Virus record (IMG/VR): IMGVR_UViG_3300020394_000307
Span: 1 to 25,574 of that record
Source of the DNA: a virus
Direction: 5' to 3' (one strand)
DNA length: 25,574 nt
Both the position numbers and the translations under genes were made by a program. The notes beneath the pieces were generated by a model. The model ran no database searches and was not told the DNA's origin. It saw nothing but the letters and a program-made list of their open reading frames with translations. Of this stretch, positions 16,547 to 21,319 are shown piece by piece (position 1 is the stretch's first letter; each line of letters opens with the position of its first letter).

Positions 16547-16932
16547 ACCCTTTCGATTATGTAAATGCTATTAATGCTGGCAAAGACATAATGACCGGCA
16601 CGGAGAATGATGAGCTTGCCGAAAAGGGATACAATCCGTTCCTGACGAATCGGCAGTTCTCATACTTTCAAGACACCGTCCACTTTGCTGCAGCTATGAA
16701 CCAGAACGCGCATATCGATCATAGGTTACAATTTGACTTTTTAATAAATATAGTTAGACCAAAGAAGCGGTTTGCTAAATGGTCTAAGACTGAACATCAC
16801 GATGATCTTGAAGCAGTAGTACAGTATTTTGGATATAGTTATGAAAAAGCTAAACAGGTCATGGATATTCTGTCTTCTCAACAGATAAAAGATATAAAGA
16901 AAAAGCTTGAGAAGGGTGGATTGAAAAAATGA
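16543..16932 (+). CDS. 62: clamp-loader small subunit gp62
   Basis: A 129-residue protein, shorter than T4 gp62 (187) but of usual size for the cyanophage-like branch. N-terminal NPFDYVNAINAGKDIM and NPFLTNRQFSYFQDTVHFAAAMNQ, then RFAKWSKTEHHDDLEAVVQYFGYS, are characteristic and show a helical collar-type protein. It joins gp44 to make the loader. Position between gene 44 and regA with ATGA overlaps on both sides is the classical T4 arrangement. Confidence 0.92.
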   Translation: MNPFDYVNAINAGKDIMTGTENDELAEKGYNPFLTNRQFSYFQDTVHFAAAMNQNAHIDHRLQFDFLINIVRPKKRFAKWSKTEHHDDLEAVVQYFGYSYEKAKQVMDILSSQQIKDIKKKLEKGGLKK

Positions 16933-17336
16933 GTTTTGATATCAATAGTCTCGTGGAGGTAAAACTCCGTAACGAAGACGACTTCCTAAAAGTTCGAGAG
17001 ACTCTAACTCGCATCGGCGTAGCTTCGAAAAAAGAGAAGACTCTTTATCAATCCTGTCATATACTACATAAACAGGGTCGCTACTTCATCGTTCATTTCA
17101 AAGAGCTCTTTGCTCTTGATGGTAAACCATCGAACATGTCTGAGTCAGACGTAGCACGTCGTAACACGATCTCAAATCTTTTGAAGGAGTGGGAGTTAGT
17201 CGACCTAGTAAAATCGGAGCAGACAGAAAATCCTATCGCTCCGATTAGTCAGATTAAAGTTCTACCGTATAAAGAGAAGAACGAGTGGGAACTCGTTGCT
17301 AAATACAATATCGGTAAGAAGAAGGTTGTTAGTTAG
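16929..17336 (+). CDS. regA: RegA translational repressor
   Basis: A 135-residue RNA-binding repressor that blocks initiation on many early phage mRNAs, including its own and those of genes 44 and 45 in T4. The matching stretches are DFLKVRETLTRIGVASKKEKTLYQSCHILHKQGRYFIVHFKELFALDG and ARRNTISNLLKEWELVDLV, covering most of the family. The 3' end overlaps by eight bases the 3' end of a minus-strand gene, so transcription converges here and no terminator is visible. In T4 gene 43 follows regA directly; here about 4 kb is inserted. Confidence 0.94.
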   Translation: MSFDINSLVEVKLRNEDDFLKVRETLTRIGVASKKEKTLYQSCHILHKQGRYFIVHFKELFALDGKPSNMSESDVARRNTISNLLKEWELVDLVKSEQTENPIAPISQIKVLPYKEKNEWELVAKYNIGKKKVVS

Positions 17337-19051: not shown

Positions 19052-19285
19052 ATGCAACCTGGAACACAAGTAAAGCTCAAGGGTAAGAGCAAACACGGTA
19101 AGAACCGTATTCAGCAGTTCGGCGAGGACTTCTGGGTATCAGAGGTTCGCGACCGTCTTCAAACGACCACGCATAAGAACTTGCCTGGTCCCTTCTTAAT
19201 GGTCTTCAGCGAGACTGGAGATAACCGATGGGTCGCTCTTAACAATGATCCCGACTTCGAGGTGCAACAACTTTTAACCGAATAG
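19052..19285 (+). CDS. small conserved phage protein, 77 residues
   Basis: The protein begins MQPGTQVKLKGKSKHGKNRIQ and continues QFGEDFWVSEV. The VKLKGKSxHGKNRIxxxGxxWxV pattern is familiar from small T4-like cyanophage proteins. The basic, strand-like N-terminus suggests an SH3-like barrel or nucleic-acid-binding protein. No function is known. GAGGCA lies 7 to 9 bases upstream. Its last stop-codon base is the first base of the tRNA. Confidence 0.75.
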   Translation: MQPGTQVKLKGKSKHGKNRIQQFGEDFWVSEVRDRLQTTTHKNLPGPFLMVFSETGDNRWVALNNDPDFEVQQLLTE

Positions 19286-19360
19286 CCGTCGTAGCTCAGT
19301 TGGTAGAGCAGGGGTTTTGTAAACCTCAGGTCCGCGGTTCGAGTCCGTGCGACGGCACCA
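19285..19360 (+). tRNA. tRNA-Thr (anticodon UGU), CCA encoded
   Basis: Complete cloverleaf: acceptor GCCGTCG pairs with CGACGGC, D arm GCTC...GAGC, anticodon stem GGGGT/ACCTC around loop TTTGTAA (anticodon TGT, reads ACA), T arm CGCGG-TTCGAGT-CCGTG, then A-CCA in the DNA. It begins at the last base of the preceding gene's TAG. Typical of phages that supplement codons rarer in a host. Confidence 0.95.
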
Positions 19361-20694: not shown

Positions 20695-20768
20695 TAGGGG
20701 ACGGGAAACATCATTCTCCTTATCATCAACTTTTTCCCGTCCCCTATTGATTATTCTAGGAGAATGAT
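20695..20768 (+). promoter_or_regulatory. interleaved inverted repeats (potential pseudoknot or switch)
   Basis: Stem A: TAGGGGACGGGAAA (20695-20708) pairs perfectly over 14 bases with TTTCCCGTCCCCTA (20733-20746). Stem B: ATCATTCTCCT (20710-20720), inside the loop of A, pairs perfectly over 11 bases with AGGAGAATGAT (20758-20768) downstream. The two can form an H-type pseudoknot or compete. It is not followed by a proper U-run. It fills the gap between the HTH gene and the hsp20 promoter. Confidence 0.6.
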
Positions 20769-20778
20769 TATATATAAT
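20747..20778 (+). promoter_or_regulatory. possible hsp20 promoter
   Basis: TTGATT (20747-20752) with either TATATA (20769-20774, 16-base spacer) or TATAAT (20773-20778, spacer 20, too long). It would put the start near 20781-20785. Spacing makes the assignment uncertain. Confidence 0.3.
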
Positions 20779-20780
20779 AT

Positions 20781-20829
20781 TGAGAATGCCTTTAGGGTTC
20801 TCATATATTAACCTTGCTTAATAGGAGGT
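20781..20829 (+). promoter_or_regulatory. ROSE-like RNA thermometer in the hsp20 leader
   Basis: Two hairpins before the Hsp20 ATG. The first pairs TGAGAA (20781-20786) with TTCTCA (20798-20803), with inner CCT/AGG. The second pairs ACCTT (20811-20815) plus CT (20817-20818) with AG (20823-20824) and GAGGT (20825-20829), leaving only G816 of TTGCT bulged, around loop TAAT. It covers the AGGAGG ribosome site. A U-U/C-G-C-U anti-Shine-Dalgarno with one unpaired G is the hallmark of ROSE thermometers that control small heat-shock genes in rhizobia and other proteobacteria. Confidence 0.6.
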
Positions 20830-20833
20830 ACAG

Positions 20834-21319
20834 ATGGCAAGCTTAAACGCTGCGGACATCCGCAAACTCGATCCCTTTTTCGTCGGCTTTGATCGTCTCT
20901 GGAAACAGATTGACACTATGCAGCATACCGCGCATCCAAACGGCCGGCACCTTTCTTATCCCCCTTACAACATTCGTCAAGTGGCTGAAGACCATTATCA
21001 TATCGAGATGGCAGTCGCCGGCTTCACACAGGAAGATATTGAAGTCATGCTACAGGATGGTACACTCACCGTCACAGGAAAGGTTACGAATGAAGAAGAC
21101 GGAGGGAAACTTCTACACCGTGGAATCGCTAACAGAGCATTCACACGAGAGTTCACGCTATCCGACACTATCGAAGTGGAAGGAGCAGAACTTGAAAACG
21201 GGATCCTACTCATCTCGCTCAAGAACATCATCCCAGATCATAAGAAGCCTAAGACGATCAAAGTTACGTCCGGAGGTAAACTTATTGAAGGGAAAAAAGA
21301 ACTCTTGACTGAAGAGTAA
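20834..21319 (+). CDS. hsp20: small heat-shock protein Hsp20 (IbpA-like)
   Basis: A 161-residue alpha-crystallin-domain chaperone that binds unfolding proteins and keeps them refoldable. Visible: N-terminal FVGFDRLWKQID, start of the domain PPYNIRQVAEDHYHIEMAVAGF (about 42-63), LLHRGIANRAFTREFTLSD (about 94-112), the conserved ENGILLISL (about 122-130, corresponding to the family AxxxNGVLxI/L motif) and a C-terminal P-K-T-I-K-V motif of I-x-I type. Architecture is close to bacterial IbpA, and Hsp20 is also common in T4-like cyanophages. Directly downstream lies the gene 43 promoter. Expression is probably controlled by the leader hairpin, see separate entry. Confidence 0.94.
   Translation: MASLNAADIRKLDPFFVGFDRLWKQIDTMQHTAHPNGRHLSYPPYNIRQVAEDHYHIEMAVAGFTQEDIEVMLQDGTLTVTGKVTNEEDGGKLLHRGIANRAFTREFTLSDTIEVEGAELENGILLISLKNIIPDHKKPKTIKVTSGGKLIEGKKELLTEE

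Follow-up and report, generated by a model that had tools for sequence, protein, structure and literature searches.

A conserved ROSE-type leader, probably an RNA thermometer, in front of phage hsp20 genes

ROSE elements and the hsp20 leader of the window

Among the described systems closest to the leader reported here is the short ROSE element of Pseudomonas ibpA (RF02523, ROSE_3), in which two hairpins fill a 5′ UTR of 61–62 nt, hairpin II carries the motif U(U/C)GCU and is the only one to melt, and the gene under control encodes a small heat-shock protein (sHsp) (PMC3669281). The ROSE element of E. coli ibpA (RF01832, ROSE_2) has the same U(U/C)GCU helix with the Shine–Dalgarno (SD) sequence, including the bulged G, and the ROSE1 element of Bradyrhizobium hspA (RF00435, ROSE) shares the sensing-hairpin motif and the gene class in a leader of four hairpins. 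In ROSE-G (PMC12857270), a bulged G also lies opposite the SD. Phage RNA thermometers have been named for lambda cIII, SPbeta blyA (fourU), and a sigma70 gene of a gut Caudoviricetes phage (PMC11182007); these are temperature-responsive phage leaders too, but none of them is of the ROSE type or lies 5′ of a chaperone gene. Our literature search returned no thermometer reported before a phage or cyanophage hsp20 gene, and the cyanophage sHSP papers make no mention of an RNA thermometer; subscription papers were mostly outside the search, and this absence is not proof.

The DNA analysed (the window, 25,574 nt) is an IMG/VR fragment that encodes gp46-like, gp55, gp45, gp44, gp62, RegA, Hsp20, and gp43 proteins. 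Gene content and the identity of gp43 to Synechococcus phages (roughly 45–47%) indicate that it comes from a T4-like marine phage; a search for a close cultured relative of the window found none. The features referred to below are the following.

1293–1844: gene of a gp55-type late sigma factor (phrog_234, E 5.5e-63)
16929–17336: RegA gene
19285–19357: tRNA gene (Rfam tRNA, 69.5 bits)
20695–20746, no strand assigned: inverted repeat TAGGGGACGGGAAA / TTTCCCGTCCCCTA, between the 85-aa upstream ORF and hsp20
20769–20776, plus strand: T4-type late promoter-like octamer TATATATA, recognized by its sequence; predicted transcript start ~20782
20782–20802, plus strand: hairpin I, GAGAA-U[G]CC-UUUA-GG-G-UUCUC, with bulged G20788
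20811–20818, plus strand: anti-SD arm of hairpin II, A-CCUUGCU, with bulged G20816
20814–20818, plus strand: ROSE motif UUGCU, inside the anti-SD arm
20823–20829, plus strand: SD AGGAGG and U20829, the 3′ arm of hairpin II
20834–21319, plus strand: hsp20, 161 aa, IbpA-type small heat-shock protein (PF00011, E 1.4e-19; phrog_432, E 1e-40)

The sequence-only reading had proposed that CCTTGCT pairs with AGGAGG and leaves only G20816 bulged, and sequence, coordinates, and predicted fold agree with this. Hairpin II spans positions 20811–20829 with its loop at 20819–20822. Its outer pairs are A20811-U20829, C20812-G20828, C20813-G20827, and U20814-A20826, followed inwards by U20815·G20825, the bulged G20816, C20817-G20824, and U20818-A20823; the hsp20 ATG at 20834 lies 3′ of the hairpin.

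The T4 late promoter TATAAATA occupies about −13 to −6. Applied to the octamer at 20769–20776, this spacing places the predicted transcript start at G20782, where hairpin I begins, and the leader counted from there would be 52 nt long. Relatives have TATAWATA or CTAAATA, mostly 58–75 nt 5′ of the start codon, and a late-promoter-like word lies within 110 nt in 43 of the 69 leaders collected blind to leader sequence. The inverted repeat upstream of the promoter is strong, is also found in close relatives, and is likely a terminator.

The features by which ROSE elements are recognized are present at this locus: U(U/C)GCU 5′ of the SD, imperfect pairing with the SD and a bulged G in the 3′-proximal hairpin, a further 5′ hairpin, and a small heat-shock gene directly downstream. 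With the Pseudomonas short ROSE it shares the compact two-hairpin 5′ UTR (~52 nt here), the AUGCC..GGGU apex with its bulged G, the U(U/C)GCU motif of hairpin II facing the SD, and the adjoining sHsp gene; it differs in its phage genome, in a T4-type late promoter instead of a sigma-32 promoter, in its A+T-rich composition, and in covariance-model scores below gathering. The upstream CGCC-UGAU-GGG hairpin of the E. coli ibpA leader resembles hairpin I, whereas the extra middle hairpin of that leader has no counterpart in the window. ROSE-G is set apart by CUGCU, two opposing bulged Gs, and ABC transporter genes, in place of UUGCU and a single bulge. Nor is the element a FourU thermometer, as its arm, CCUUGCU, does not offer four consecutive U against the SD.

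When the folded stretch ran from roughly the predicted start to within codon 8, the minimum free energy (MFE) structure consisted of hairpins I and II at all temperatures from 10 to 50 °C, with the G20816 bulge persisting up to 42 °C; hairpin II alone has −6.3 kcal/mol at 25 °C and −4.5 kcal/mol at 37 °C. The predicted probability that the SD is unpaired rises from 0.05 at 10 °C to 0.23 at 50 °C, and the same method over the same range gives 0.06 to 0.14 for E. coli ibpA and 0.00 to 0.16 for E. coli ibpB. This predicted opening is compatible with a thermometer and proves nothing, since 97 leaders separate little from their shuffles (at 10 °C, mean SD unpaired 0.32 vs. 0.40 in shuffles; at 42 °C, no difference) and the fold changes when a longer stretch of the window is taken. 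For positions 20740–20850, with promoter DNA included and less coding sequence, the MFE structure pairs CUUGCU of the anti-SD arm with codons 1–4 in a competing 6-bp helix, and the z-score is only −0.8, which is not significant. Single-sequence energetics alone are therefore insufficient to reveal the leader, and given the weak separation from shuffles, energetics were dropped as proof. We also rejected a bistable switch, in which the anti-SD arm pairs with codons 1–6, as such pairing is no commoner than in permuted pairs (p = 0.1).

A covariance search with the Rfam ROSE families, which the sequence-only reading had named as a check, failed for the window itself and was partly successful for its relatives. 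In the window, a search over 401 bases with a limit of E ≤ 10 gave no RF02523 match, and no ROSE family reached gathering; RF01832 gave no match, its control finding E. coli ibpA at 100 bits, and RF00435 gave none either, with a control that likewise matched nowhere. In a scan of 50 relative loci against the full set of 4227 Rfam families, RF02523 matched more than 10 of the 50 hsp20 leaders over its full length (positions 1–69), with E down to 1.7e-4 and a best score of 36.1 bits, the gathering score of 43 being reached by none. In the alignment, both the U(U/C)GCU/SD helix and, in hairpin I, the AUGCC..GGGU apex with its bulged G coincide, and the phage leaders are in this sense kin to ROSE_3. 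As the window lies below every Rfam ROSE model, its membership rests on anatomy and relatives and not on a database score.

Conservation, gene specificity, and covariation

Relatives were collected by the Hsp20 protein alone, blind to the leader. The U(U/C)GCU/SD register is present in 60 of the 69 distinct (non-redundant) phage hsp20 leaders of this protein-found set, with U at the variable position in 38 and C in 22. In the first leader-blind IMG/VR subset, motif and SD occur together in 36/38 distinct hsp20 leaders, whereas none of the 77 other ORFs with an SD on those contigs is preceded by the motif; among isolates, 14 of 16 hsp20 leaders have both. The converse search was gene-blind: the DNA pattern AACCTTGCT N3-7 AGGAGG N4-9 ATG, run on IMG/VR, gave at least 80 sites. 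Among the 80 matches listed, 73 lie directly 5′ of hsp20, 3 precede an ORF that is cut by the contig end and has an hsp20-like start, 2 precede a 67-aa ORF with hsp20 directly after it, and 2 fall at the 3′ end of a coding sequence lying upstream. The association of the motif with hsp20 is far beyond chance. Motif-positive ORFs of 94–97 aa were set aside as coincidence, the upstream gene there reading ..NNNLA-stop.

The loci with the 67-aa ORF (L083, 2604–2831, and L116, 344–571) have the element, then this ORF, then hsp20 with its own SD, and possibly form a two-gene unit. In Synechococcus phage Sf-CH3 (L215, ~401–433), the annotated hsp20 start (ATGTCTCGCTT...) falls within the element; the true start is likely the ATG 3′ of the SD.

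Carriers of the element include the Pelagibacter phages HTVC008M, Mosig, HTVC115P, and HTVC103P, the Synechococcus/Prochlorococcus phages S-PM2, S-RIM12, S-CAM9, P-SSM3, and S-H38, Methylophilales phage Melnitz-3, and the Sinorhizobium jumbo phage Phosso. Viruses of cyanobacteria, SAR11, methylotrophs, and rhizobia thus have nearly the same hsp20 leader. Two expectations of the sequence-only reading have to be given up on these data. A thermometer-type leader, which it considered unusual for a phage, is the rule among the phage hsp20 genes sampled (60/69), and since phages of all these hosts have it, the element is no pointer to host lineage.

Two clades depart from the common form. Three leaders (L080, L313, and L218) have hairpin I (GGAAUGCCAUAAUGGGUUCC) directly 5′ of the SD and no hairpin II, and hairpin I may be used alone there, or control may have been lost. 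Three others (L304, L314, and L316) are without the ROSE motif; their SD lies between the arms of a short inverted repeat (GUUGUC..AAGGAGACAAC), which may form another kind of SD-masking hairpin.

These counts bear on the reading that the leader is a structured 5′ end that serves mRNA stability or constant low translation and senses no temperature. The position of hairpin I at the predicted 5′ end, the modest predicted opening of the window SD, and the small temperature swings of oceanic hosts are in keeping with it. However, the bulged G and the U·G (or C-G) pair, by which ROSE elements are typified, are kept in 60/69 leaders, though a perfect helix would mask the SD equally well, and for the known E. 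coli thermometers the same method predicts an opening just as modest. We regard this reading as unlikely.

For covariation, 67 leaders were aligned by model, an alignment that leans to the structure and in which one row (L315:185-258) is a second, weak match and no hsp20 leader. In it, 92.2% of cells are paired, and 183 cells are double-changed vs. 54 in shuffles, a level reached in 0/500 shuffles; all slid registers fall far below the true one. The further hairpin that the sequence-only reading had noticed just upstream, as in ROSE, is borne out: all 8 pairs of hairpin I show double changes, with 95.9% of its cells paired, and RNAalifold found hairpin I unprompted in an independent MAFFT alignment of 28 leaders. 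Hairpin II was not recovered by RNAalifold in that alignment; the fixed SD leaves it less room to vary. Compensating changes have nevertheless arisen naturally in hairpin II: in S-TIM5, CCACGCU faces AGGUGG, and in HTVC103P, AUCGCU faces AGGAU. The outer pair of hairpin II in the leader-blind set is C-G in 23, U-A in 9, and A-U in 2 leaders.

A covariance model, R1, was trained on the window and IMG/VR leaders only, with isolates excluded. Of 16 complete isolate phage genomes, 14 had their best R1 match on the hsp20 leader, with its end at the start codon; under strict filters the model gave no match in S-TIM5 and HTVC103P. Weak second matches of 17–21 bits were observed at 129871–129935 in Sf-CH3 (W15), 101230–101283 in S-8S55 (W10), and 111719–111770 in HTVC008M (W04).

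Covariation also speaks to the reading that the conserved AACCTTGCTTAA is a DNA site, either a T4 MotA middle-promoter box (TGCTTtA) or a Pho box. TGCTTA does resemble the MotA box (PMC9004378), and the S-PM2 version has been listed as a putative Pho box (PMC10976474). Against this, the arm covaries with the SD; no −10 element, due ~12–13 bp downstream, fits before the ATG 15 nt downstream; TCGCT and CACGC variants break the MotA box with SD pairing retained; and the S-PM2 site shows neither PhoB binding nor a phosphate response (PMC10976474). A DNA site is thus extremely improbable, and the ROSE element accounts for the sequence upstream of S-PM2 hsp20 that was listed as a Pho box yet does not bind PhoB. 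Hardly more credible is an operator of the translational repressor RegA: the window does encode RegA, but HTVC115P, HTVC103P, Phosso, and S-TIM5 carry the element with no detectable RegA.

Overall, conservation, covariation, gene specificity, and the full-length, sub-threshold ROSE_3 alignment of relatives uphold the initial proposal of a ROSE-like SD-masking leader before phage hsp20.

The Hsp20 protein and the bulged-G motif

The phage Hsp20 is IbpA-like. Aligned with E. coli IbpA, the window protein has Arg at the R93 position, as do 91/97 phage Hsp20s; an aromatic residue is found at 34 in 97/97 and R/K at 97 in 92/97, and IbpA K98 is not conserved. The element follows the same protein type in bacteria: in 58 alphaproteobacterial genomes sampled, U(U/C)GCU occurs in 16 of 19 IbpA-type hsp20 leaders, which include a Sneathiella MAG contig (L218) without the motif, and in 0 of 12 other hsp20 leaders. 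The link of the element to IbpA-type hsp20 is near-exclusive.

An unrooted maximum-likelihood tree places 19 of the 21 bacterial Hsp20s in one group separate from the phage sequences. The exceptions are the Sneathiella MAG contig, whose Hsp20 groups with that of phage L080, and L337 (alphaproteobacterial genome G009, 1.4 Mb), whose Hsp20 groups with phages and whose leader is very phage-like; donor, recipient, and phage contig are candidate identities for L337. A search of genome contigs with the window Hsp20 gave a single locus, the Sneathiella MAG contig, and model R1 had no match over the Sneathiella genome. RF02523 matched in one alphaproteobacterial genome (L219) with no hsp20 ORF nearby.

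E. coli IbpA represses its own translation via the 5′ UTR, for which R93, R97/K98, and the aromatic residue at 34 are needed (PMC10474464). With Arg at the R93 position kept in 91/97, autoregulation, added to direct thermosensing or replacing it, is the leading rival: Hsp20 (or host IbpA) would bind the SD-masking leader and keep its own translation repressed until it is drawn off by unfolded clients, and temperature would act only indirectly. The retained aromatic residue at 34 and R/K at 97 fit this, as does the strong conservation of hairpin I, although this hairpin leaves the SD unmasked. On the other side, K98 is not conserved, the kept residues may serve folding, and binding is putative; moreover, such feedback is compatible with a thermometer, as E. 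coli ibpA has both. We consider a feedback leader possible, though doubtful.

In the window, hairpins I and II have the same local geometry at the bulged G20788 and G20816. The corresponding motif of hairpin I (Y, bulged G, and C facing G-G) is found in 62/69 leaders against a shuffled mean of 1.2, and ROSE_3 and the E. coli ibpA leader have it too; no SD-masking role is evident for it. More speculatively, and in our judgement improbably, the two hairpins could serve Hsp20 as a double docking site and act as thermometer and aggregation sensor in one, kept independently of host thermometers. If this were true, a lytic phage would free its chaperone once folding clients pile up late in infection, and the pair would be kept across phages of cyanobacteria and proteobacteria.

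Proposed regulation and its meaning for marine phages

Taken together, our results show that the leader is real, conserved in phages, and of the ROSE type; it is best explained as a phage branch of the ROSE thermometer family in a new setting, and we hold with good confidence that the hsp20 leader is a phage-borne RNA thermometer. By kinship to ROSE, a temperature response of the leader is likely, and we infer that hairpin II represses translation. The late promoter would start the mRNA at hairpin I, and hairpin II would close the SD with the imperfect CCUUGCU helix, with its U·G pair and bulged G, lowering translation at growth temperature. Warming would loosen hairpin II and allow ribosomes to load, the result being a chaperone supplied on demand, late in infection.

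The gene hsp20 is a core gene of T4-like cyanophages and is also present in pelagiphages and methylophages. With a ROSE element before this core gene, control of the chaperone, that is, temperature- or folding-load-dependent synthesis, can be tested directly in viruses that are among the most abundant in the sea.
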